From positions 62,001 through 126,000 of IMG/VR virus record IMGVR_UViG_3300032293_001706: a DNA stretch of 64,000 bases; one strand, written 5' to 3'. Position 1 is the first letter of the stretch, and every line of letters starts with the position of its first letter. The notes beneath the pieces are model-generated. The model was not told the DNA's origin. It did no database searches and worked only from the letters and a program-made list of their open reading frames with translations. This stretch comes from a virus. Positions 8,055 to 62,436 of the stretch are shown one piece after another. A program made the position numbers and the translations under genes.

Positions 8055-8435
8055 TTATAATTTTGCATTTATGTAAACAACAGACATTAATTTATCTCCT
8101 GTTGTATTATAATTTGACGGTAATTCATTAAATTTTTCACCTGTTCTCTGAAACGTAAAAGTTTTATCTATTCTAAATAATCTCCAACCCGGTAAAACTT
8201 TTTTACCGATTGCAACACTATGTGACGCTCCTTCAGGTTCATATGCCCTTAAAACTAAATTTCCTTTTAATGAACGTCCCAAACAAACAGGATAAACAGT
8301 TCTATATCCTTTACCACCTGGTTCGTCACCATCGTATGTTATAATAATAACATCACGATTTTTGATTGCCCTTTGCAAATCATTAAATGATACGGCTTCA
8401 GTAATAAAACTTTTTATAGTTTCAAGTAACTTCAT
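8055..8435 (-). CDS. WYL-like domain protein with T4-type capsid-targeting leader
   Basis: 126 aa. Residues ~20-100 resemble a single WYL domain: RAIKNRDVIIITYDG, YRTVYPVCLGRSLKG, NLVLRAYEPEG and GWRLFRIDK follow the strand order and R/Y positions of that SH3/Sm-like ligand-sensing fold. There is no HTH domain, so it is not a usual WYL transcription factor. The N-terminus MKLLETIKSFITEA closely resembles the capsid-targeting sequence of T4 internal proteins (MKTYQEFIAEA), with a likely gp21-type cut after Glu13. It could be a protein packaged in the head and injected. It overlaps the next gene upstream by one base. Confidence 0.6.
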   Translation of the reverse strand: MKLLETIKSFITEAVSFNDLQRAIKNRDVIIITYDGDEPGGKGYRTVYPVCLGRSLKGNLVLRAYEPEGASHSVAIGKKVLPGWRLFRIDKTFTFQRTGEKFNELPSNYNTTGDKLMSVVYINAKL

Positions 8436-15734: not shown

Positions 15735-16070
15735 TTATTGATATTTAATTCCATCACTAGATAAAATAAACCAATAACCTCCAATGAAATAAAATTCGAC
15801 ACTTGAACCTGAATTTAATTCAATGTCATCATATTTGTCATCGAATTTATTTCTATCAGGTTTTATAATTGTTTTTGTTAAAGATTTAATATAAACGTGG
15901 TCGGTTGTTGAACTATCCAAAGTGATTTCACAATCGTCCACGTTTTTAACAATTATTATGTGTTCACCTTTTGTTACATAGGTTTTTTCCGACAAAATTA
16001 TGCCTTCAGAGGATTCGACCTCAATTCCATTTATAATTCTTTTTGAGGGTATATTCTTTAATATTGGCAT
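15735..16070 (-). CDS. Hypothetical beta-rich virion protein
   Basis: 111 aa. Beta-strand-rich with a C-terminal segment (GSSVEFYFIGGYWFILSSDGIK) of the kind seen in phage capsid or fibre accessory proteins. No catalytic residues. It shares a stop/start overlap with the gp13-like neck gene upstream, so it is probably co-expressed with head-neck genes. Convergent with the DNA polymerase gene 10 nt away. I cannot name the family. Confidence 0.6.
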   Translation of the reverse strand: MPILKNIPSKRIINGIEVESSEGIILSEKTYVTKGEHIIIVKNVDDCEITLDSSTTDHVYIKSLTKTIIKPDRNKFDDKYDDIELNSGSSVEFYFIGGYWFILSSDGIKYQ

Positions 16071-17197
16071 TAAATTACGTAGAAATTTCCAGGGAAAGCT
16101 CTAAACTTCAATTGTTTGTTAAGGTTTTCAGCTATTAAAGCTTCTCTTTCCATAACCTTGTCAGGTCTTAATCTCGTTAATTGACCTTCAGCGCCAATTA
16201 GTTCTTCAAGTAGTTTCGCTCTTTCATCTTTCGCCTCAGTAGCCAAAGAAGTATAATCAAGAGTTAATTCTGAATCGGGTGTTTTTAAGTTTCCACTATA
16301 CTTTCCCCAAACACGAGAAAGAGTTTCTTTACAATATGCGGTGAACCATCTTCTAACCCATTGTTGTGCAGGAACATTTAATTCAGACCAAGAAAGTTCT
16401 TCTAATGGCACATCTGAAGGTAATTTAACGATGTCAGGGTTTTTTGCTAAACAATCATTTCTATCGCCATCTGTGGTGTCATAATACCAATACCAACATC
16501 TGTATCTGTTAAATGAAATATTTGAGAAGTCGAATCTACCACCAGGTACGTTATAAAGATGTACAATTTTCTTTCCATCAGGTGCTGCGGTGATTCTATA
16601 TGTTAAATCACCAATGATAATTCTTTGTTTGATATTTCTATCTGCCATTCTTAAAAGAACGTCAAATGCTGGCATCATAAAATAACTACCACCCACACCA
16701 AATTGTGCATATCCTGCGGGTCCACCAAGACCAGTACCTCCGAAACCATATAATCCACCCATGAACGGGTCAAAGAAAGTATCATTTAATTCCGCTCTTT
16801 GAAACCAAAGAAGTTCGTTAATTTCTCTCCCTGCAGGAATTTCATATAGTTGTTGATTTGGAACCAAATCAAAATAATCTTTTTTCAAGACCCAAGGACC
16901 ACCAGCTTGTAAACCAACAATTTTTGAATACGCATAAGTATATTGGGTTTCCCAATCTAAACTACGAGTAATAAGTGCGTTTGCAACTGAACGTTCATCC
17001 AAATTAAGACCGTTTAATGAAGTCCATTGTGAATCTATCAACCAATTAAGAACATATTGGGTATAATCACCAATAGCAAGTTCCATTAACGAATCCATTT
17101 GTTCGTCTTCCAATTCAACACCTCTAACGGGTGCTCCAAGAAGATTTCTTATTCTTCTATAAAGTCTGCTTCTTTCGGGTTCTTGTATAATAGCCAT
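16070..17197 (-). CDS. 13: Neck protein, T4 gp13-like
   Basis: 375 aa from the ATG at 17197; a TTG two codons upstream (17203) is a less likely start and lies within the TATTTAT motif. The N-terminus, RRIRNLLGAPVRGVELEDEQMDSLMELAIGDY in overlapping pieces near residues 14-45, matches the LGxPVxxVELxDxQ signature of T4-type neck/head-completion proteins that seal the portal and join the tail. The remainder is beta-rich with a Gly/Phe-rich stretch near 145-170. Longer than T4 gp13 (309 aa). Its place beside other neck genes supports the call, but the identity rests mainly on the N-terminal motif. Confidence 0.6.
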   Translation of the reverse strand: MAIIQEPERSRLYRRIRNLLGAPVRGVELEDEQMDSLMELAIGDYTQYVLNWLIDSQWTSLNGLNLDERSVANALITRSLDWETQYTYAYSKIVGLQAGGPWVLKKDYFDLVPNQQLYEIPAGREINELLWFQRAELNDTFFDPFMGGLYGFGGTGLGGPAGYAQFGVGGSYFMMPAFDVLLRMADRNIKQRIIIGDLTYRITAAPDGKKIVHLYNVPGGRFDFSNISFNRYRCWYWYYDTTDGDRNDCLAKNPDIVKLPSDVPLEELSWSELNVPAQQWVRRWFTAYCKETLSRVWGKYSGNLKTPDSELTLDYTSLATEAKDERAKLLEELIGAEGQLTRLRPDKVMEREALIAENLNKQLKFRAFPGNFYVI

Positions 17198-17202
17198 TAA
17201 CA

Positions 17203-17209
17203 ATAAATA
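17203..17209 (-). promoter_or_regulatory. TATTTAT motif, 5 nt before ATG (minus)
   Basis: Minus-strand TATTTAT, then 5 nt, then the ATG at 17197. Matches the plus-strand examples. Confidence 0.45.
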
Positions 17210-17218
17210 TCATAGATA

Positions 17219-18772
17219 TTAAATTTGGCTACTTTTTTCGAACACGTAATTTCCGTCAATTATTTTTGTTGAATTGTTTTTGAAAACAATAGTTGTATCG
17301 CCATTATTGAACGCAATATAATCTGTTGTATATTTTTTAGGATTACTAACACCATATATAACAACTTCGTTATATGAAAACTTCCTGATAGATGAAAAAG
17401 GTTTTATTTGTATGGTCTTTTCAACACCATTTTCAATAACAATTGCATCAACCCCTGAAATCATATCTTGTTCACTACCCAAACCACCAATTTTTTTTAC
17501 TTCATCGGTGTTAAATATTTTTTTAAGTTGAATTATTGTGTTATCTTCTCTAATATCACCCAACCTATTTGTTTGTTTTAGTTTTTCAAAAATTTCTTGA
17601 AAGGTTTTTGAAGTTTCAAGATTGAATATTCTATTTTTTAATAACTCCAAATAGTTACAAAATCTTTCAACTTCTTTTATTTGTTGTTGCTTATCTGATG
17701 GTGAAAATGAAATTTTTTCCTTATTTACGGATTTTAAATAAACATTTAAGTCGTTCATTAATATACAGAACGCACTATAGTTTGTGTTAAGTTTATTTAT
17801 AACTGACCGTCCTTTTGATTCAAAATCATATATACCTGACATTGAATTGGTTTCATATTCTCCCTTTTCTTTCCAATATTCAGGAAAAACATCTTTCAAA
17901 ATACTGTTTATGGTATGCATAAACTTATATTTTACTTCAGGGTTAGTTGAAAACAATTTATTTATTTCTTTTGTTTGTGTTGAGTTACATCCCATACTTT
18001 CTCTTGATTCACTTATAATTTGTTTGTAAGACTTTGATTCTTTTATTTCTTTTTCGGTTTTTGACAAATATAACGAATTTACGAATTCCCAGTTTATTGC
18101 GGAAAAGAAATTTTTAACATATTCATCTCTTTTGTTTTGGTATTTTAAATAATATGCATGTTCCCACAAATCTAAACCTAAAATAGGAAAACCACCGTCT
18201 TCAACAATGTTCATTAAAGGATTATCCTGATTTGGTGTTATAACAATTTTTAATTTACCACTTTTTGATATTATTAACCAACACCAACCTGAACCAAAAT
18301 TTGATGATGCTTTTTCTATAAAACTTTTCTTAAATTCGTTATAAGAACCAAAATCTTTTTTTATTCTTTCCAAGACCTCACCCTTAATGGTTTGTTTTGT
18401 TGGTGATAACATTTTCCAAAAAAGAGCGTGATTAAACGCACCACCAGCATTATTCCTAACAATTTTATTAAATCTTGAAATACTTCTTATGATTTCTTCA
18501 AGGTCCATATCAGACCTTTTAATATTTTCAATTGCTTTGTTTAACTTTTCAACGTATCCCTTATAATGTCTATTATAGTGAATATTCATTGTCTTAGGGT
18601 CAACAAATCTTAATAATGATGAATATGAATATGGTAACTTTTCGATACCAATTTTTTTCATTTCATTTAGAATTTCTTTTTGTTGGGTGTGTAATTCCTC
18701 TGAAAGATTTTCTTTACCTTCCAAAATTGTTTGAATTTCTTCAATTTCCAAATCTAACTTTTTAAGTTCCAT
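17219..18772 (-). CDS. Superoxide dismutase fused to possible PD-(D/E)XK-like domain
   Basis: 517 aa from the ATG at 18772, preferred over an upstream in-frame start at 18841 because a TATTTAT motif sits 4 nt before it. Residues ~45-235 are a full Fe/Mn superoxide dismutase: LPYSYSSLLRF, MNIHYNRHY (H65), NNAGGAFNHALFW (H115), FGSGWCWL, PNQDNPLM, and GLDLWEHAYYLKYQN (D201, H205), so all four metal ligands are kept. Gly111 and Gln182 correspond to the Mn-type second-sphere arrangement. A 40-residue helical extension precedes it. The C-terminal ~280 residues are unrelated to SOD; GSEQDMISGVDAIV (432-445) and TIQIKPF (453-459) resemble a PD-(D/E)XK nuclease core with Gln in place of the acidic residue. 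Confidence 0.8.
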   Translation of the reverse strand: MELKKLDLEIEEIQTILEGKENLSEELHTQQKEILNEMKKIGIEKLPYSYSSLLRFVDPKTMNIHYNRHYKGYVEKLNKAIENIKRSDMDLEEIIRSISRFNKIVRNNAGGAFNHALFWKMLSPTKQTIKGEVLERIKKDFGSYNEFKKSFIEKASSNFGSGWCWLIISKSGKLKIVITPNQDNPLMNIVEDGGFPILGLDLWEHAYYLKYQNKRDEYVKNFFSAINWEFVNSLYLSKTEKEIKESKSYKQIISESRESMGCNSTQTKEINKLFSTNPEVKYKFMHTINSILKDVFPEYWKEKGEYETNSMSGIYDFESKGRSVINKLNTNYSAFCILMNDLNVYLKSVNKEKISFSPSDKQQQIKEVERFCNYLELLKNRIFNLETSKTFQEIFEKLKQTNRLGDIREDNTIIQLKKIFNTDEVKKIGGLGSEQDMISGVDAIVIENGVEKTIQIKPFSSIRKFSYNEVVIYGVSNPKKYTTDYIAFNNGDTTIVFKNNSTKIIDGNYVFEKSSQI

Positions 18773-18776
18773 TACT

Positions 18777-18783
18777 ATAAATA
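18777..18783 (-). promoter_or_regulatory. TATTTAT motif, 4 nt before ATG (minus)
   Basis: Minus-strand TATTTAT ends 4 nt before the ATG at 18772, supporting that start for the SOD fusion. It lies inside the 5' end of the longer alternative ORF. Confidence 0.45.
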
Positions 18784-18800: not shown

Positions 18801-21704
18801 TTATCTTTTTTGATTAATTCTATCCATAATTTCTCCAACAATTTCAGCTCTATCTAAGTTATCACCCATAACAGTTGCAATGTTTTGTTTTTTGGTATTA
18901 ACAATATCATATATTATCCCTTCAATCGCGTTCTCGAAAATTGGATAGTATACGGATACTGAATTTTTTTGACCATAACGATAAGCTCTATCTTCCGCCT
19001 GAGCCATATCACCAGGAACAAAAGAAAGGTCATTCATTATTACCGCTTCCCCAGCAGTTAATGTTATTCCAACTCCTGCGGCTTTCATATTACCAATAAA
19101 GATTTTTATCTTATCATCTGTTTGAAACCTATCTACCGCTTCTTGTCTTTGTTTTGGTGAACAAGAACCATTCAAATAAACAGAATTTTTTGAATAATGA
19201 TTATGAAGAGATTCTAATGTTTCTGTAAAATTGGTGAAAACAATAACTTTTTTATCCTGTTCGATAATATTATCAATTAATTCTATCGTTGAATTGATTT
19301 TTTCTTTTGCAATTACTTGTCTTACTTTTGTAAGTTTTGTGAACTGAACGGTTAGTGATGAACTTTCATCGGGGTTTTTATCATACCAATCATAATATTC
19401 TCCCATTAAACTTTCATATTCTTTAGATTTTAATCTTAGGTAAACTGGTGTTATTATTTTTTCAGGAAGGTCCAAGATATCCGTTTTTAATCTTCGTAAT
19501 ACTTGTCTTGACGTTCTATCTCTTAATTCCTCAAGGTTAGATGCTCCAGTGACATTCCATATTTTTCTATTACCAACTTTAAACTGATAACCATCACAAT
19601 ACCTTTTTACATATGCCATCCAATTTGATGCTACGGGTGATTCCACCAAATTTAAAAGATTATAATAGTTAATTGGTCTTGATGTCATTGGAGTTCCTGT
19701 TAATAACCAAAGTCTATCAACATCTTTCACAAAACTATTAATTAATTTGGTTCTCTTTGCCAAACTATTCTGTACATAGTGAGCCTCATCAATAATTATT
19801 AAATCAAAATTACTTTTTAATATTAAGGATTCTTGATTTTTTTCCGTACTGTGGAAGTTTTTAACTATGTCGTAATTCATAATTACAAAATCCGCATCTT
19901 CATATTTTTTACCTTCACAAATATATACTGACCTATCACTATAGTTTTGAATTTCCCTTTGCCAATTAATCTTTAAAGATGCGGGACATATAATTAAAAT
20001 TTTCTTTGCTCCTGTTTCTAATGCCGCAACAATTGTTGAAGTTGTATTATGAGTTACAATACAATGTTCTGTAACGTATAACTTATCAGGAGAGTCAACT
20101 GAAATACAAACCGCATCCCCTCTACCTTCGAGTTGTATATCTTTAATATACCTTCCAACTTTGTATTTATTAGGGGAGTTATATAATTTACACTTTCGTT
20201 CAAGTTTGAATGGGTTCATACCACTAGGTAATTTTATATTAACCCTATAGGATTTTTTACCCTTTTTTTTAACTCCATTATGAGTATAATTTGTTATTCT
20301 ATCTTTTTTTCTAGCAATCCCCCCTAAACTATGAACAATTTCAATTACGTCATCACATAGTTTTTCAGATGTTGTGCTAAATTCAGTTCCTCTGAACTCA
20401 CCATTTTTACTAACATAACAAGTCCCATCAGTATCCATTAAACCTTTTAAAAGTTCTAATCTATCATTAATTGAAGAATATTTATACGCATCAGGAATAA
20501 ATTTATTATATGAACCACAACCCATTAAATTTAATTTTTTCAAAATTTGTATTACTGGATTAGTAAGTCCTGCTTCTTTTATAATTTTATACCCATATTT
20601 TGAATTTACTTTTTCAATTATCCGTGAATTTTCAGGTAAAACTTGTTTTATATAATTAATAATTTCATAATCTTTAGTTGTAAAAGAAATACTTTTTTGA
20701 GTTATACCACCATCTCCTAAGATTAACCCCAACAAGTAAGGATTTAACTCTAATTCACGTGACACAAACTCAATCGGTTTAACCATTGGTATTTGCCATT
20801 TGTTATTACCACCTTTATTTTTAAAATAAGTTTTAAATTTATATTTTCTATTATTGTTATTTTTTTCACCTAATACTTCTAAGGCTAACTCTTTATCTAG
20901 CATATCGCCTACGGATAATACAATCTCTTTTTTTCTACGAGAGTTATTAGTGTTAATCCCAAAACTGTTTGACATGACCGAAAATAAATGTTCTTTACAG
21001 ACTAAAATAGAAACCCCATCATTGAATGATACTCTGTATAAATCTTTAACCCCTTGTGGGTAAACACCTAAAACTTTACACTTTTTACCATTACTACCAA
21101 TAACTTCATCACCAATTTTTAAATCACCAATTTTTTTTCTACCGTATGGGGTAAATACCATATTTTCAACAAACTCGGCTTTTCCAGCACCCATATCGTC
21201 TGCCAAAATAAATCTTTTGGTTCTTACTAAACGATTAACCGCTTCTATTTGATGTTTTAATGGAGGTCTATGGGAATACTTTGAAAAATCAATTTCTTTG
21301 TAATACTCTTCAGGGTTTTTAATAATCGCAACTTTTGGAATCCAAATATCCGTCAAAGGTTCACTTTCAAAAAATTTACCCCATATATGATAAGATTTTT
21401 CTTTTTCAACCAATAATTTTTCAACCCAAATTTTGTTAGGAGGATTGGTATATAATTTTTCATTTGCAATTTTTTCTGAAAAATATGAATCCAATTCAAC
21501 CCACTTCTTTGCAATTTTTGGTGTTATATTATGAAAGTTTATTATATACTCTGATTGACTTCTTGTTATTTCTTTACTCTTATTAGGTCCGAAAAGTGAT
21601 TTTAATCTTAATATATAGTTATTTGCACCATTATAACTCTCTAAAATTTTAAGAGCTTTTTTTTCAAAAACATTTATAGACGACGATTCGATGTTGTCTG
21701 ACAT
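18801..21704 (-). CDS. SNF2-family helicase interrupted by an intein
   Basis: 967 aa as translated; 589 aa after splicing. N-extein 1-175 ends in FILADDMGAGK and the C-extein (554 on) begins TTSTIVAAL, so splicing rebuilds Walker A GAGKTT. Other helicase motifs: II LIIIDEAHYVQN, III LLTGTPMTSR, and VI QAEDRAYRYGQ, typical of SNF2/SMARCAL-type ATPases that remodel or anneal branched DNA. It may stand in for T4 UvsW in recombination-dependent replication (inference). A TATTTAT motif lies 18 nt before the ATG at 21704. The gene's end overlaps the upstream alternative start of the SOD gene. Confidence 0.9.
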   Translation of the reverse strand: MSDNIESSSINVFEKKALKILESYNGANNYILRLKSLFGPNKSKEITRSQSEYIINFHNITPKIAKKWVELDSYFSEKIANEKLYTNPPNKIWVEKLLVEKEKSYHIWGKFFESEPLTDIWIPKVAIIKNPEEYYKEIDFSKYSHRPPLKHQIEAVNRLVRTKRFILADDMGAGKAEFVENMVFTPYGRKKIGDLKIGDEVIGSNGKKCKVLGVYPQGVKDLYRVSFNDGVSILVCKEHLFSVMSNSFGINTNNSRRKKEIVLSVGDMLDKELALEVLGEKNNNNRKYKFKTYFKNKGGNNKWQIPMVKPIEFVSRELELNPYLLGLILGDGGITQKSISFTTKDYEIINYIKQVLPENSRIIEKVNSKYGYKIIKEAGLTNPVIQILKKLNLMGCGSYNKFIPDAYKYSSINDRLELLKGLMDTDGTCYVSKNGEFRGTEFSTTSEKLCDDVIEIVHSLGGIARKKDRITNYTHNGVKKKGKKSYRVNIKLPSGMNPFKLERKCKLYNSPNKYKVGRYIKDIQLEGRGDAVCISVDSPDKLYVTEHCIVTHNTTSTIVAALETGAKKILIICPASLKINWQREIQNYSDRSVYICEGKKYEDADFVIMNYDIVKNFHSTEKNQESLILKSNFDLIIIDEAHYVQNSLAKRTKLINSFVKDVDRLWLLTGTPMTSRPINYYNLLNLVESPVASNWMAYVKRYCDGYQFKVGNRKIWNVTGASNLEELRDRTSRQVLRRLKTDILDLPEKIITPVYLRLKSKEYESLMGEYYDWYDKNPDESSSLTVQFTKLTKVRQVIAKEKINSTIELIDNIIEQDKKVIVFTNFTETLESLHNHYSKNSVYLNGSCSPKQRQEAVDRFQTDDKIKIFIGNMKAAGVGITLTAGEAVIMNDLSFVPGDMAQAEDRAYRYGQKNSVSVYYPIFENAIEGIIYDIVNTKKQNIATVMGDNLDRAEIVGEIMDRINQKR
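20046..21179 (-). other. Intein with LAGLIDADG endonuclease (class-3-like)
   Basis: Residues 176-553 of the helicase (378 aa). It starts AEFVENM, has a block B CKEHLFSV, two LAGLIDADG helices (LLGLILGDGGI at 324-334, LLKGLMDTDGT at 418-428), a block F AVCISVDSPDKLYV (C533) and ends IVTHN before Thr554. Ala1, the block F Cys and Thr+1 are the marks of class 3 inteins, such as that in the Deinococcus Snf2 protein. The usual block B Trp is Phe241 here. Both endonuclease helices keep acidic residues, so homing activity is plausible. Confidence 0.9.
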
Positions 21705-23581: not shown

Positions 23582-26500
23582 ATGGCAACAAGCAATAAAG
23601 TTTTCGTTTCACCTGGAGTATATACTTCAGAACGTGATTTATCTTTTGTGGCACAAAGTGTGGGTGTTACAACATTAGGTATCGTAGGAGAAACTTTGAA
23701 AGGTCCAGCATTTGAACCAATCTTTATCACAAGTTTCGATGAATTTCAAGCGGTTTTCGGAGGTACACTTCCTGAAAAATTCGTAAACACACAAATCCCT
23801 AAATATGAAGCGGCATACATTGCAAAATCATATTTACAACAATCAAATCAACTTTTTGTTACAAGAGTTTTAGGTTTGTCAGGTTATGACGCAGGACCTT
23901 CTTGGTCAATCACGTCTGTGGCAAACGTAAATGGTTCTACAGTAATTCAAAACGCAACACCTTCAAGTGTTGTCGTTACATTCACAGGTAGTACAGGTTC
24001 AACTTCAGTATCTTTTGGTTCATTTGCGTCAACTGTATTTGCAAATGATGTAAATACAACACAATCATTAACTGATGGAACCACAACAACTATTAAAAAT
24101 CAGTTGGATAGTTTTGTAAATTCAGTAATGAATACAAACTCAACAAGTGCAACAACAGCGTATGTATTTGGAACATTAGGTGACACTGTTTATAATACCT
24201 TGACAGGTGCTGGTTATACAGGTCTTACAAATGTTTATAACGTACCATCTTTAAAAAATTCATTAACATCATATTCAAGTAGGGATAACGATGCTTGGTA
24301 TTACTCACAATTTAATATTAGTTCAGGTAATAACTATAGTGGTTATTCATTTAGTGTTGCGGTAACATCACTATCAGGAACCGCATTTGGAACCGCAGGA
24401 CAATTTTCAGGTTCTGTAACAATTTCCGCATCAACATTACTTGGAACTGCTTATACCGATTGGAATAATGTTGTGTTAGCAACTCTTCGTTCAAGAGGTA
24501 TCGCACCATATGATAATTCAACAAATCCTGATTATCAGGTAACAGGAACTACAGATGTTATTATTGATTTAAGTGGAGTATATTCAGGTACAAGTAAAAC
24601 ACCTTTTGGTTCATTTGCAATTTCGGGTGTAACATACGAAGGTAATACATTTAATTTCAAAACATCCCTTGATTCAACAGACCCAAATTATATTTCAAAA
24701 GTATTTGGTTTATCTAATTTCGGAAAAGATAGAAATGATGTTCCATTGTTTGTTGAAGAAAGTTTCAGCAATATGTTGACCTATGGTTATCAAATGGGTT
24801 ACGTTAAGTCTATTGGTAGTACATTAAAAGGATTACCATCAGCACAAGACGATAACGGAACAAACACATCAATAGGTTGGTATTTGGAACAATATCAAAC
24901 ACCTGAAACACCTTACTTAGTTTCTGAATTAAGAGGTAACACAGTTTATGATTTGTTTAAATTTATATCAATTTCTGATGGTAACGCAGCAAATGCTGAA
25001 ATTAAAATTTCAATATTAAACATTTCATTTACAAATGGAACATTTGATGTTGGTGTTCGTGATTTTAATGATACAGACCAAAATCCTGTATTCATTGAAA
25101 AGTTCACAAATTGTTCAATGAACCCAAGTAATAATAACTTTATCGGTGTGAAGATTGGAACAAGTGATGGTGAATACGTACAACGTTCAAAATTCATAAT
25201 GGTTGAATTAAACCCTGAAGCTCCGATAGATGCACTTCCTTGTGGTTTTAGAGGTTATCCTTTAAGAACATATAACGGTGTTACATCAGCATTTCCAATC
25301 TACAAAACACAATATGAAACAGCAGGTGATAATACTTTTTATCCTCCTTTTGGTTCACAACAGGTAAGTTCAGGTGATAAAGTTAACAGAACTTATTTGG
25401 GTATTTCAAATACTGTTGGTATTGACCAAGAATATTTCAACTATAAAGGAAAACAAAACCCTACAAATATTGCAACGGCAACAAGTTCAAATCCTTGGAA
25501 TTTTATATCAAAAGGATATCACTTAGATTCAGGAGCAACAGTTGTAACAATTCCTTCAACTTATTCTACTTCAGGTACATCAGCATTTGAAGTTGGTGAT
25601 GCGTCCTTTAGTTCAGAACCAACAGATTCAACAAGTCCATACTACAGATTAAACGCAAGGAAATTCACTTTGGTTCCTGCGGGTGGTTTTGATGGCTGGG
25701 ATATTTACAGAGAATACAGAACAAATGGTGATAATTTCATCATTGGAGGTTCAGGATTCTTGAAAGGTTTTGCACCAACATCACAATTCCCTACCGCAAC
25801 TGGTTGGGGAGCGTTTAAGAAGATTACTGTTGACGGTAATTCAAATGATTGGGCTAACACCGATTATTATGCATACTTAAAAGGTCAGAAGACTTTCGCA
25901 AATCCTGAAGCGGTTAACATTAATATTTTTGTTACTCCGGGTATTGATTTTGTTAATAACTCAAACCTTGTTGAAGACGCAATTGATATGATTGAAAATG
26001 ATAGAGCGGATTCACTTTATATTACAACTTGTCCTGATTATAATATGTTTGTATCAAATACAACATCATCAGAAAACTTGATTTACCCTCAAGAAGCGGT
26101 TGATAATTTGGAAACAACAGGAATCGACTCTAACTACACCGCAACTTATTATCCTTGGGTATTGACAAGAGACACTGTAAATAATACACAGATTTATCTT
26201 CCTCCAACCGCTGAAGTTTGTAGAAACTTGGCGTTGACCGATAACATCGCGTTCCCTTGGTTCGCATCTGCGGGTTACACAAGAGGTATTGTAAATGCGG
26301 TTAAAGCAAGAAAGAAACTAACACAAGAAGACAGAGATACCCTTTATCAAGGTCATATTAATCCAATTGCGACATTCTCTGATGTTGGAACAGTAATTTG
26401 GGGTAATAAAACAACACAAATTGCTGAATCCGCTCTTGACAGAATCAACGTAAGAAGATTGTTATTACAAGCTCGTAAGTTGATTTCAGCAGTCGCAGTT

Positions 26501-27862: not shown

Positions 27863-27869
27863 TATTTAT
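27863..27869 (+). promoter_or_regulatory. TATTTAT motif upstream of tail tube
   Basis: TATTTAT 41 nt before the tube ATG at 27911. Like the sheath gene, the tube gene has a longer A-rich leader. Confidence 0.35.
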
Positions 27870-27910
27870 ATAGAAAATAAACTAAAGAAAACAAAATAAT
27901 GAAATAAAAT

Positions 27911-28429: not shown

Positions 28430-28468
28430 AAATCCATATATTTATTTATATGGATTTTATTTTTTTCC
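28430..28468 (+). terminator. Intrinsic terminator after tail tube
   Basis: 11-bp stem AAATCCATATA (28430-28440) with TATATGGATTT (28447-28457), 6-nt loop, followed by a T-rich tract (TATTTTTTT). The loop region includes TATTTAT (28437-28443). Confidence 0.75.
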
Positions 28469-31095: not shown

Positions 31096-34000
31096 ATGGC
31101 ATCAGGTCCTTTATCATTTTCCACAACCGAAAGTCTTAGAAAAAAACTATTATCTAAGAATTTGGAACCATATTTTGTAAATGGTTCAACATCACCAAAA
31201 TCAAACGCACAAGATGTTGGAACCAAAGAAACCGAATGGATTGAACTTCCATTGGTAAATCAACAAGATTTAGATAAATCTGGTGAAATTCCGCAAATTA
31301 AACTTAACGTATTAAATCAATATGGACCTGATAATGGAAGAGGTCCAAGTGCGGTATTTAAAAATCAAGGAACAAAATCAAATCAAGGTGAATTTATTTA
31401 TCAAACAGATAATACCAATAAGTTTAAAGAATCAGAACAAGAACAAAAAGAACTTTTGGTTTTAAATAGGTTCGCACCTCAAAATGGATGGTCGGATGCT
31501 GCATCAGAGTTAGAATCAAAAATTATTCAACCACAAATAAGAGATGAATATGTATCCGATAGTTTAAAGCCGAACTTATATAGACCATCAAAATATACAT
31601 CAGCACAAATATATCTACAAGATAATCCTACTGGTTCAGATGGAACATTAAGTCAAGACTCAATTTTGGCTCAATTGGGGGCGAAAAAATTAAAACAATT
31701 GTTCTTAGATTCGGTTGCGTTTGAGATAAGACAACAAACAACGGGAAGAGCAAACGCAATTATTGCCGCACAAGACCCATATCTTGCATCCAAAATAATA
31801 ACAGGTAGAGCACCACTAATTGAACCAAATTGGAGTGTAACAGTTCCTGATTCTGCTTTAGGTAAAACTGTTAATTTTGCAGCGAGAGTCACAGGTGCGT
31901 ATTCACCATTTTCATATATACCAGGTGATTATTTTTCCTTTGTTCAACCAACAAGTTTATTGAATCAAACAATTAATAGAGTTGCCGGATTTTTTGGTTC
32001 ACCAAATATTCTTCCAACAAGAAAGACCGCATCGGATATTTTCTTAGCATACACGGGACAAGGAACAAGAAAACTTTTATTTGGTAGTTTGGGTTTAAAT
32101 AAATTTGCACCTGACTATCGTGCCAATTTCATTAACCAACTTGGTCTATCAGCACCGAAAGGAAATTATTATGTTGGAAGTAGAACTTCAGAACCATTGG
32201 ATATCGTATCACCATCAGGTCAAATTCCTGTTAATGAATATGGTAAAGAAGTTGAAACAAATGTATATGGTCCTAGTGTTTTAGGAAAACTATATGAAAA
32301 TGATTTGGAGTTTAAATTTGGATTAAATCAAACTTCAACAATAGATGGCGGCGGGTTACAAGGTGGTTTTACTTGGGTTTCACCAAAGTATAAAGGGAAT
32401 GCTGGTTTTAATGTTGGTAAAGGTGGGGACCCAAAAGGACAAGACCCAAACTATCAACCAATTGCCGCACAATACACAAACTCTGAATCAACTCAATATA
32501 GTTTTAAACAAGGTTCAATACTTGACGATACTCAAAGATTAATTAATTCACAACCAAATGGGGGTAAAAGATTACAACACGTAGGTAACGCAATTGACCA
32601 AGTGTCAAAAGTGTTTAATGATGGTTATAAGGAAATAACAAAAGGTTCAAGGGTTATAAAATATGTTGACCAAAACGGAACTTTTGTTGGAACAGAATAT
32701 GGGAGAGTATTTGCAAAAGACATACCATATTATGAAAATACAAAACTTCAGAAAACAGAAGGAAATATAAGAAAAAATGCGAACTCAATTTTAGATAAAA
32801 CATACAATTTAAATATTTTTCCAACAACAGGTCCTGATTCAACAACAATTTCAGATGGACGAGTTAAAAAATATATGTTGTCTATTGAAAATCTTGCTTG
32901 GAGAACTTCAAGAAGACCTGGTTTAACATATGCTGATTTGCCTGAAAGTGAAAAAGGACCAAATGGTGGAAGGGTTATGTGGTTTCCACCATATGATTTA
33001 TCTTTTTCTGATGACTCAACAGTTGATTGGAATTCAAATACATTCTTAGGAAGACCTGAAGCTATATATACATACAAAGGAACAAGTAGAGGAGGTTCAT
33101 TAAATTTTAAAATTGTCGTGGACCACCCTTCAATAATGAATCTAATTGTAAACAATGTATTATCAAACACGAATTCAAGTCAAGTTGCAGACCAAGTATT
33201 GGATTCATTTTTTGCTGGTTTAACTAAGTTTGATATATATGAATTGGCGAAAAAATATCAGAATTTTTCACCAACAGAATTACAAAAAATACAAGATACA
33301 ATTAACCAATCTTCAAATCCTGAAAAAATAAAAGATAGTTTAACTGCTAATCTTAATAAAGGTGGAACAGGCGCTGGAGGGTCAATGACATCAAATGCGT
33401 CTATAGGTCTTCAAGATTATAAACCACAATTGTCGGCGTACATTAATAGTGAATTCTTTTTCAACTATAATCAATCGGGTGGTAATTCATATTCAGATGC
33501 GTTAAATCAATATGAAAGTGATAATAATTTTAAGATAATTAATAATGTCCAAAGTACCGAAATAAAAAATTCATATTCAAGATTGGAAAATCTAAGTAAT
33601 CAAATAAAGAGTACGTTAGATACAAACCCTAATGTTACAATAAAAATTTTATTAAAATCTAATAGTTCTTATAATGAAGCAACGACAGTCAAGAAAGATA
33701 GACTAACTTGTATCGAAGAGAGTATTATTAAAATTGTTGGGAAAAACACTAGACTAACTTTTGAAAACAAACAAGGTAATGATAGTGATAAACTACCAAC
33801 TATTAATTATCCATGTAATAGTGCAACAACTAATAATTATGCTGTTGGACCTGTCGGATGTAGAAGAGTAATAATTGATAATATAATTGAAACCCCATTA
33901 CCAAATCAAAATAATCCTAATGGTAGTACAACCCAAAGTCCTTCAACTGTTGTTGGAAATATTGCGTCACAATTCAGATTAAATAATTCATTAAATAACA

Positions 34001-49027: not shown

Positions 49028-50890
49028 ATGGACGCATCACAAAAGATACTGTCAGACTTAACCGTTTACATGAAATATGCAAAATTTGTTCCCGAACTAA
49101 ATAGAAGAGAAACTTGGGAAGAATTGGTTACAAGAAACATGGATATGCATATTAAAAAATATCCTAAACTTGAAAGTGAAATTAGAGAAGTATACAAATA
49201 TGTATATGATAAAAAAGTGTTACCCTCAATGAGGTCAATGCAGTTTGGAGGTAAACCGATTGAAATCAGTCCAAATAGGATGTTCAATTGTGCGTACCTA
49301 CCAATTGACCACTTGGATGCGTTTGCTGAATCAATGTTCCTATTACTTGGTGGAACAGGTGTGGGATATTCAGTTCAGAAACATCATGTCGATAAACTAC
49401 CTGAAATTAGAAAACCAAATCCAAATCGTTCAAGAAGATTTTTAGTAGGAGATTCAATTGAAGGATGGGCAGATGCCATCAAGGTGCTAATGAAATCATA
49501 TTTTGGTGAACATCTATCAACACCTGAATTTGATTATTCTGACATCAGACCAAAAGGGGCAAGACTGATTACATCAGGTGGTAAAGCACCTGGTCCACAA
49601 CCATTGAAAGATTGTATTCACCAATTAACAAAAATTTTGGATGCGAAAGAAGACGGTGAAAAACTAGCACCAATTGAAGTTCACGATATAATTTGTCATA
49701 TCGCTGACGCCGTGCTTAGCGGTGGAATCCGAAGAGCGGCACTGATTTCCTTATTTTCGGCTGACGACCATGAAATGATTGCAGCCAAGTCAGGTGCTTG
49801 GTGGGAACAAAACCCACAAAGAGGTAGGGCAAATAATTCTGCGGCACTTGTTAGACACAAAATAACCAAAGAAGTTTTCTTGGATTTGTGGAAAAGAGTT
49901 GAAGCTTCAGGTGCAGGAGAACCTGGGATTTATTTTACAAACGATAAAGATTGGGGTACTAATCCATGTTGTGAAATTGCTTTGAGACCAAATCAATTCT
50001 GTAATTTGTGTGAAGTAAACGTATCCGATATTGAATCACAAGAAGATTTAAACGCTCGTGTAAAGGCTGCATCATTTATTGGAACACTTCAGGCGGGATA
50101 TACCGATTTCCATTATTTGAGAGACGTTTGGAAACGTACCACAGAAAAAGAAGCGTTGATAGGGGTTTCAATGACAGGCATCGGTTCAGGAGTTGTGTTA
50201 GGTTATAATATGGTAGAAGCTGCTGAGGTTGTTAAAGAAGAAAATGCTCGAGTTGCGGAACTTATCGGAATTAATAAATCGGCAAGAACAACCACTGTTA
50301 AACCAGCTGGAACAACATCTTTAACACTTGGAACATCATCAGGTATTCACGCTTGGCATAATGATTACTATATCCGTAGAATTCGTGTAGGTAAGAACGA
50401 ATCAATTTATCAATACCTTTCAATTTATCATCCTGAATTGTTGGAAGATGAATATTTCCGTCCTCACGATACTGCGGTAATTTCTGTACCACAGAAAGCA
50501 CCTGAAGGGGCTATTTTAAGGACAGAATCACCATTCCAACTTTTGGATAGGGTTAAGAAAGTAACACAAGAATGGATTAGGCCCGGACATAGAAGTGGTT
50601 CAAATACACATAACGTTTCTGCAACAATCAGTTTGAAACCTGAAGATTGGGAAATGGCGGGTGAATGGTTTTGGGAGAACCGTGACTATTACAATGGTCT
50701 GTCTGTACTTCCATTTGATGGAGGGTCATACATTCAGGCACCTTTTACCGATTGTACTAAAGAAGAATATGATGCATTGTTTAGTAAACTACACACAATC
50801 GATTTATCAAAAGTTGTTGAGTTAACCGATGAAACAGATTTAAGTAATGAATTAGCGTGTAGCGGTCCTATGGGTTGTGAAATTAAATAA
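49028..50890 (+). CDS. nrdJ: Class II (B12-dependent) ribonucleotide reductase
   Basis: 620 aa; resembles monomeric adenosylcobalamin-dependent reductases (RTPR). SMRSMQFGGKP, MFNCAY (C88, disulfide partner), LLLGGTGVGYSVQ, NPCCEIAL (C314 thiyl site, N312, E316) and FCNLCE (C325 partner) match the catalytic set; a C-terminal Cys pair C611/C617 (ACSGPMGC) would be the reducing arm. It makes dNTPs without an oxygen-dependent small subunit, so it works in low or high oxygen if the host supplies B12. Shorter than RTPR (739). No nrdA/nrdB genes are visible. Confidence 0.9.
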   Translation: MDASQKILSDLTVYMKYAKFVPELNRRETWEELVTRNMDMHIKKYPKLESEIREVYKYVYDKKVLPSMRSMQFGGKPIEISPNRMFNCAYLPIDHLDAFAESMFLLLGGTGVGYSVQKHHVDKLPEIRKPNPNRSRRFLVGDSIEGWADAIKVLMKSYFGEHLSTPEFDYSDIRPKGARLITSGGKAPGPQPLKDCIHQLTKILDAKEDGEKLAPIEVHDIICHIADAVLSGGIRRAALISLFSADDHEMIAAKSGAWWEQNPQRGRANNSAALVRHKITKEVFLDLWKRVEASGAGEPGIYFTNDKDWGTNPCCEIALRPNQFCNLCEVNVSDIESQEDLNARVKAASFIGTLQAGYTDFHYLRDVWKRTTEKEALIGVSMTGIGSGVVLGYNMVEAAEVVKEENARVAELIGINKSARTTTVKPAGTTSLTLGTSSGIHAWHNDYYIRRIRVGKNESIYQYLSIYHPELLEDEYFRPHDTAVISVPQKAPEGAILRTESPFQLLDRVKKVTQEWIRPGHRSGSNTHNVSATISLKPEDWEMAGEWFWENRDYYNGLSVLPFDGGSYIQAPFTDCTKEEYDALFSKLHTIDLSKVVELTDETDLSNELACSGPMGCEIK

Positions 50891-61293: not shown

Positions 61294-62436
61294 ATGAATA
61301 CAGATATTTTCAAAGTTTCAATATCCCAAGAATTTTTACAATCTGCCAAAGTTAATTTGGAGGTGAGTGGAAAAACGGTTCCGATGTATACTGGTATGAC
61401 TTATCTGTTAACAGGTGGTACAAATGGTACGTCACTTTTAACAGGACTAACAATCCCTGTAATGTTTCAACAATCCTATAAAGACATTGGATATTATTCA
61501 GGGTTTGACGGTGCGATATATCAAAAAGATATTAATAACAATTTTATTTATAGTGGGACTACAGGTTCACCACAAAATTACAATTTGTATCTATTTAATA
61601 CATCTCAAGAATATGCTCAAGATATTGTATATACAGTAGATTGGGGTGATGGGTCACCTTTTGAAGTTATTAAAACAAAGGCGCCTGATTATACAGTACA
61701 CACATATCCGTTCAATCCAAATATTGGAGAATTAAAAACATATTCAGTATCAATGAGTGGTTCAGGTCCTTGGGGTATAACAGTAACCAAAAAAAATATA
61801 ACAATTCCTTATACTCAATTAGGAGTACCAAATGAAGAGGGAGAATCATTTTTTATACCTATGGGAACATATTGGTCAGGAACACCAATATCATATAAGT
61901 GGATATTTACAGGTGATAGTTACAATAACTATCCTGCTCAGGTAAGTTCATCATATCCTAATTTTAAGAAAACACCTTTTTTTGTTACAGGATTTACAAA
62001 TTCACAATTAAACCAATTAAGACTTTATGGACCAAAACCATATGTTGAAGGTGTTCCTGTAATAAAACAAGGAAAAATCGTTGGGTTGGTAAATAGAATC
62101 GCACCTAATTATACGGCATATACATATAATGACCAACTTTATTATGATTATCCTGAAGGGTATACATTATTCATTACAGGATATTCAGACCCAACAAATC
62201 CTGATAAAATAGTACCAATTACATCAGGATTAACACAAGAAATGATAACATTAATACCAATTGTAAAAGAAGAAATATTATTAGGTATGGTAAGTGATAC
62301 AGAAATACAATCAAATGTATTTATAGATAGAGGAAAATTATCGGTAACCGAAAGTCTGTTAAGACTTGGAGAAGTTGATAGTATGAATGACCTCATAAAT
62401 TATGGATATGGATACTTTAAAATAACGGAAATCTAA
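61294..62436 (+). CDS. Tail protein with PKD-like domain
   Basis: 380 aa. Residues ~90-170 fit a PKD (Ig-like) unit: YNLYLFNTS, VDWGDGSPFEVI, VHTYPFNP and YSVSMSGSG follow the WGDG...HTY...Y.V layout. Such domains usually mediate adhesion or protein contacts. C-terminal part contains PEGYTLFITGYSDPTNPDK and a helical end. Positioned downstream of the wedge genes, so a baseplate or fibre component is likely. Confidence 0.6.
   Translation: MNTDIFKVSISQEFLQSAKVNLEVSGKTVPMYTGMTYLLTGGTNGTSLLTGLTIPVMFQQSYKDIGYYSGFDGAIYQKDINNNFIYSGTTGSPQNYNLYLFNTSQEYAQDIVYTVDWGDGSPFEVIKTKAPDYTVHTYPFNPNIGELKTYSVSMSGSGPWGITVTKKNITIPYTQLGVPNEEGESFFIPMGTYWSGTPISYKWIFTGDSYNNYPAQVSSSYPNFKKTPFFVTGFTNSQLNQLRLYGPKPYVEGVPVIKQGKIVGLVNRIAPNYTAYTYNDQLYYDYPEGYTLFITGYSDPTNPDKIVPITSGLTQEMITLIPIVKEEILLGMVSDTEIQSNVFIDRGKLSVTESLLRLGEVDSMNDLINYGYGYFKITEI

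Follow-up and report, generated by a model that had tools for sequence, protein, structure and literature searches.

In the window analyzed here (64,000 nucleotides, positions 62,001 to 126,000 of IMG/VR virus record IMGVR_UViG_3300032293_001706), one gene encoded a superoxide dismutase (SOD) fused to a C-terminal nuclease module. Judged from the sequence, the product of this gene is probably a precursor from which internal head proteins are made; it would be packaged into the head, cut into an SOD and a nuclease, and ejected. The full polyprotein form of this proposal, in which an SOD and one or two nucleases are joined by prohead-protease sites and the capsid-maturation protease frees enzymes for injection alongside the genome, had an even chance of being correct. 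The precursor interpretation was based on the joints of the protein, the doubled and SOD-less forms of the nuclease, the location of a paralogue among the head genes, and a late-type promoter. The protease-type sites, the paralogue and the promoter also lent support to the putative role in DNA entry that the original prediction had suggested. The open reading frame (ORF) had been predicted without a strand; it was real and lay on the minus strand. Its features in the window were as follows.

17219-18772, minus strand: SOD-nuclease ORF, 517 amino acids (aa), ATG at 18772, stop at 17219
18662..18772, minus strand: residues 1-37, forming the N-terminal extension, a putative propeptide for capsid targeting, low AlphaFold2 (AF2) confidence
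18662..18670, minus strand: LNE37, predicted prohead-protease site 1, ending the N-terminal extension
18065..18646, minus strand: Mn-type SOD domain, residues 43-236, ligands H65, H115, D201 and H205
18038..18046, minus strand: IKE245, second predicted cleavage site of the prohead protease (linker)
18008..18016, minus strand: ISE255, third predicted cleavage site of the prohead protease (linker)
17222..18007, minus strand: nuclease module, residues 256-517, with a helical part (~264-382) and a PD-(D/E)XK core (~389-512)
17402..17449, minus strand: D442-(x12)-Q455-x-K457, predicted catalytic core, with E409 at 17546-17548

The [L/I]-x-E sites were absent from the original prediction and were found in the follow-up. 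Cleavage by T4 gp21 takes place after L/I-X-E (PMC9026906). Homologues were clustered at 85% identity into 34 representatives, and the joints were compared in 32 representatives. The only invariant residues in linker columns 233-261 were E245 and E255 (32/32 each). Position -2 of E245 was I/L in 30/32 and V in the other two, and position -2 of E255 was I/L in 32/32. Residues 241-257 had a pLDDT below 50 in the AF2 model, indicating a disordered linker. The N-terminal extension was coding, with codon-position differences of 1008:489:1399. An [IL]xE ended exactly 8 aa ahead of the SOD motif LPYS in 25/32 representatives, and the remaining seven had an [ILV]xE farther upstream within the extension. 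Cytoplasmic-type cellular SODs usually start ~7 aa before LPY and end 11-21 residues past NW; therefore, an SOD of cellular length would result from cleavage at E37 and E245.

A head maturation protease of the phrog_207 type was encoded by the source genome (G000; 190,552 bases, possibly incomplete) at G000 32759-33475. This copy was 66% identical to that of a relative, which matched phrog_207 with an E-value of 2.8e-43. The capsid protein of the clade carried a LINE|A site in 8/8 genomes examined, which in our reading matches the position where T4 gp23 is cut during maturation, and from this site we infer a protease specificity matching [L/I]-x-E.

The nuclease module was also found in other arrangements. 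One relative (G001) encoded both the fusion and a separate, SOD-less paralogue of the module (318 aa, beginning MKITISEGQYKILSE), which was situated between the protease gene and the scaffold and capsid genes. In another locus (L212), the SOD was followed by two nuclease modules, and four other contigs gave the same region at 100% identity. These two modules showed 30-31% identity to the SOD-less paralogue, and each possessed the E, D, D and QVK residues. Each was preceded by a similar tag (KLMES..IKE and KLTES..LLLE). The strict tag pattern occurred only four times in the 59,438 aa of predicted proteins of the source genome; this pattern was drawn up after the tags had been seen, and the linker of the window's own protein fits a looser form only, so that the count is a description and not a blind test. 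If the polyprotein form is correct, the repeated tag, K[L/I]xE[S/G]...[L/I]xE, would work as a portable signal for loading and release. Separately, further ORFs started with LTES...[IL]xE-like tags (e.g., KLTESQFANIVKRILKE) and may be head cargo too.

G000 24738-25469: tag-like ORF
G000 25472-26074: tag-like ORF
G000 165653-166195: tag-like ORF
G000 169803-170090: tag-like ORF
Window 8058-8435, minus strand: tag-like ORF

Phages T4 and P1 and the phiKZ-like phages are known to inject head proteins. The T4 internal head proteins IPI-III and Alt are processed by the prohead protease (PMC9958956), and a targeting sequence lets T4 heads carry foreign enzymes, one of them a nuclease (PMC3012670). 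The phage protein shared with IPI, IPII, IPIII and Alt a putative N-terminal propeptide ending in L/I-x-E, a late-type promoter and a gp21-like protease. It differed from them in that two different enzymes, with sites between them, made up the putative precursor, and in that its targeting is predicted.

Immediately upstream of the gene there was an 8-nt element that was frequent ahead of other genes of this phage.

18776..18783, minus strand: TATTTATA, putative late promoter element, 3 nt ahead of the SOD-nuclease ATG
27863-27870 and 28443-28450: further examples of TATTTATA in the window, the element being seen genome-wide in G000

On the coding strand, TATTTATA was present in 27 of 188 upstream windows of 60 nt, compared with ~1.1 expected from ORF bodies (~25-fold), part of this excess being due to composition because upstream DNA is more AT-rich than ORFs. 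The reverse-complement control, TATAAATA, was found in 5 upstream windows only. The element preceded the protease, scaffold, tube, hub and SOD-nuclease genes, and it was not found ahead of the DNA polymerase, gp32, RecA-like, DnaB, RNase H, ribonucleotide reductase (RNR), dUTPase or exonuclease genes. In 27/32 representatives it was located 3-21 nt upstream of the SOD-nuclease gene. The helicase and gp13 genes next to it were preceded by a near form, TATTTATT, with one mismatch at the helicase. TATTTATA may be the late promoter element of the clade. The T4 late consensus, TATAAATA, was tried as the promoter and rejected, because its 20 occurrences in the window against 16 expected represented no clear enrichment.

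The SOD domain was readily recognized. Sod_Fe_N (PF00081; 1.8e-20, residues 43-123) and Sod_Fe_C (PF02777; 8.2e-39, residues 130-233) were both detected in Pfam and passed the gathering score (132.2 and 73.6 bits vs. cut-offs of 20.9 and 27), and the top PDB match of the protein was a solved Mn/Fe SOD (E 5.6e-61). The four ligands lay at the positions originally predicted and were invariant in 34/34 representatives, as were the gateway pair H69/Y73 and residues G111, Q182, E204 and Y208. G111 and Q182, which we take from SOD fingerprints to be Mn-type residues, fit an SOD of the Mn type, with metal identity and dismutation predicted. The domain holds everything that activity requires and is a predicted enzyme. 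Compared with the Fe/Mn SOD family, the phage protein shared ligands and second-sphere residues, and it added the 37-residue N-terminal extension and the C-terminal nuclease module. The closest cellular SODs (43-53% identity) were mostly from Bacteroidota.

These invariant ligands, second-sphere residues and Mn-type residues would also suit an auxiliary SOD that acts in the infected cell and protects phage DNA in place, the C-terminal domain being a DNA tether or a nuclease degenerated by the exchange of an acidic residue for Gln. E. coli MnSOD binds DNA. Genes for defence against reactive oxygen species are common in freshwater phages (PMC6802176). We regard this explanation as decidedly unlikely: SOD-less and doubled forms of the nuclease occur, and E409, D442, Q455 and K457 are invariant, which, together with the D/Q/K precedent of the DREN nucleases (PMC12205087), makes degeneracy improbable.

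The core residues D442, Q455 and K457 also lay where they had been predicted, and together with E409 and D436 they were invariant in 34/34 representatives; Gln occupied the (D/E) place of the D-(x)n-(D/E)-x-K motif in every one. Gln is likewise found in TnsA (Q130) and I-Ssp6803I (Q49). In the DREN nucleases of SPARDA, which use D41, Q60 and K62, the Gln binds Mg (PMC12205087), and Asn/Gln variants are recognized within the PD-(D/E)XK superfamily (PMC1189080). Gln at this place is not disabling in itself, because such variants are known.

The AlphaFold model of the module, built from 34 sequences, had a pLDDT of 90.3. In a Foldseek search against PDB the first 16 matches were all PD-(D/E)XK enzymes, with I-Ssp6803I and Hjc among the top ones, at modest scores (best E 6.3e-3 and none <0.001; probability 0.77-1.00; TM by target 0.36-0.47). 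This supported a PD-(D/E)XK nuclease fold in the model, nearest to Hjc resolvases and I-Ssp6803I, and agreed with the nuclease domain originally proposed, for which a non-nuclease fold had been the alternative. The predicted fold was shared with both enzymes, the E lying on the first long helix, the D on a core strand and xK on the one after it; the phage module differed by Gln in place of D/E and by an extra helical part of ~120 residues. When the module sequence was searched against PDB, Pfam and PADLOC, no usable match emerged, and none in PDB or Pfam was significant. The likeness to Hjc is one of fold neighbours only, the Pfam and PDB sequence searches being without an Hjc match. Over the core there was a weak match to phrog_5018 (unknown function). 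In BFVD, a viral structure library, A0A6J5L953 had the same fusion, with a TM of 0.85 for the nuclease module. The full-length AF2 model had a low pTM (0.48), and the relative placement of the domains was left uninterpreted. A separate BFVD entry, A0A8D9CCA0, was an uncultured marine phage protein of 1113 aa with this nuclease module (TM 0.78), possibly another multi-module precursor.

The gene was embedded in a conserved neighbourhood, in which the order helicase, SOD-nuclease, gp13 and small ORF, followed by DNA polymerase on the opposite strand, was kept nearly everywhere.

18801..21704, minus strand: SNF2/UvsW-like helicase with intein, upstream neighbour (Pfam SNF2-rel_dom 2.6e-26; phrog_62 DNA helicase)
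16070..17203, minus strand: gp13-like neck (head-tail adaptor) gene, beginning 15 nt 3' of the SOD-nuclease gene (phrog_211, E 6.7e-10)
15735..16070, minus strand: small ORF, 111 aa, 3' of gp13, kept in 148/156 loci

The helicase adjoined in 156/156 loci. This arrangement, and the presence of Hjc among the closest folds, would be expected of an intracellular bifunctional recombination or repair enzyme, whose Hjc-like module would resolve branched DNA with the UvsW-like helicase before packaging. The SOD, a dimer in nature, would dimerize the enzyme or protect DNA at the site, and the [L/I]xE sites would be incidental. No endonuclease VII exceeded the cut-off in 12 related records, which also leaves room for such an enzyme, but these were incomplete and its absence means little. 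We consider this explanation rather unlikely: the SOD gene has an exact late-type motif of its own, whereas the helicase has the one-mismatch form only; the linker keeps only the protease-type Glu residues; and the paralogue is situated in the head cluster and not beside a helicase. The helicase intein comprised Hint and LAGLIDADG parts (Pfam LAGLIDADG_3, Hom_end); in most relatives the helicase was ~590 aa long and had no intein.

The neck-gene neighbourhood had originally been predicted, and the neighbour was identified as a gp13-like gene, present in 154/156 loci. Its proximity would suit a nuclease that completes heads, like T4 gp4, acting at the portal or neck with the SOD as an accessory. 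The gp4 protein is small and is not known to have a helical part like that of the phage module. T4 gp4 is predicted to be a PD-(D/E)XK protein and is important in head assembly (PMC1189080). This explanation appeared very improbable: it leaves the tags and the doubled module unexplained, and PF08722 (TnsA-type) was unmatched in 9 records, although the control search likewise found nothing anywhere.

The homologue search that had been proposed for this layout gave, among its best matches, 80 homologues sharing 51-100% identity and drawn from many metagenomes, which is more than chance would produce, and at least 457 stretches in IMG/VR were related to the C-terminal module. In total, 156 distinct loci were examined, comprising the 80 top-ranking matches from each of two scans and the locus in the window itself. 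A complete SOD plus nuclease was present in 154 of them, i.e., in every locus with an intact frame. Two loci that seemed not to have a complete SOD (L102 and L094) both retained an in-frame portion of it, and we took them to be truncated or to have a damaged frame. The original prediction knew of no such fusion. The nuclease module was not found in cultured phages, no cultured isolate of the clade was found, and the same fusion was absent among the Pfam, PHROG and PDB matches; yet the fusion was widespread in uncultured viruses, and it was already present in at least one UniProt record, A0A6J5L953 (uncultured Caudovirales phage), which had the same layout at 46% identity over the full model and bore just the name "superoxide dismutase". 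One weak module match in Proteus phage 10 (E 0.7) lay inside a large, unrelated-looking ORF and was discarded, and none of 198 pattern matches in cellular genomes was confirmed.

The accompanying view that SODs are rare in phages was right only in part, with the fusion common in uncultured phages and stand-alone SODs encoded by Pseudomonas and Vibrio jumbo phages. The latter (PA5oct group and Vibrio phage 2.275.O) belong to the same Fe/Mn family at ~28% identity, and differ in being ORFs of ~180-190 aa without the nuclease module and in another gene neighbourhood. Freshwater phages with SOD have also been reported (PMC6802176). SOD-rich records labelled as phages of Staphylococcus, Salmonella, Enterococcus and Listeria, together with a single freshwater contig, looked like bacterial contamination and were not used as evidence of phage SODs. 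Similarly, phage-named INPHARED records such as OR844989, OR845917, OR846594 and MW462191 carried a bacterial-type SOD at 39-50% identity and had the look of host contamination.

The clade is a large group of uncultured T4-like phages. Its capsid protein was closest to those of Microcystis phage Mel-JY01 and Flavobacterium phage immuto (~40% identity). Because of these closest capsid proteins and the Bacteroidota-like SOD, we infer that the host belongs to Bacteroidota.

For the head-packaged precursor, the following course is proposed. The N-terminal extension would serve as the capsid-targeting propeptide. During prohead maturation the gp21-like protease would cleave after L/I-x-E at E37, E245 and E255, giving a free Mn SOD (~38-245, of cellular size), a 10-residue spacer and the PD-(D/E)XK nuclease module (256-517). 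Both enzymes would remain in the capsid and then enter the host along with the DNA. At or just after entry, the SOD would clear superoxide from the surroundings of the incoming genome. The nuclease (E...D...QxK) would cleave certain DNA, either that of the host or of a competitor or branched molecules. More speculatively, a junction- or modification-specific nuclease would spare the packaged DNA, and phage DNA might be marked through the glycosyltransferases encoded at 0.4-6.7 kb of the window. The segment 448-6731 (minus strand) encoded several glycosyltransferases, a dUTPase and a 3'-5' exonuclease, and DNA or surface glycosylation is possible. Elsewhere, an RNR at 49028-50890 (plus strand) looked like a class II (B12-dependent) enzyme, unlike the class I and III enzymes of T4.

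Several points weigh against a packaged precursor. The [L/I]xE motif is short and occurs ~14 times per 1000 aa across the proteome of this phage, and two conserved copies sit within folded domains (E204 and E367). The P1' residue of E37 is Met, possibly just the ancestral SOD start. The sequences compared are related and do not count as independent samples. The helicase and DNA polymerase genes nearby serve DNA metabolism, and a nuclease packed with DNA must be held inactive. The literature search turned up no paper on a phage SOD packaged in virions, and the papers found described neither antioxidant enzymes delivered by phage virions nor multi-enzyme precursors cut by a head protease; SOD is mentioned in giant-virus virions (PMC9405923).

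If the precursor interpretation is true, virion cargo could be predicted at the sequence level in uncultured phages, and a nuclease family with a tractable assay would be added. The database name of the fusion, just "superoxide dismutase", is an annotation trap that is corrected here. The carriage of SOD by these phages would also be explained, as an enzyme needed at once on entry, before gene expression.
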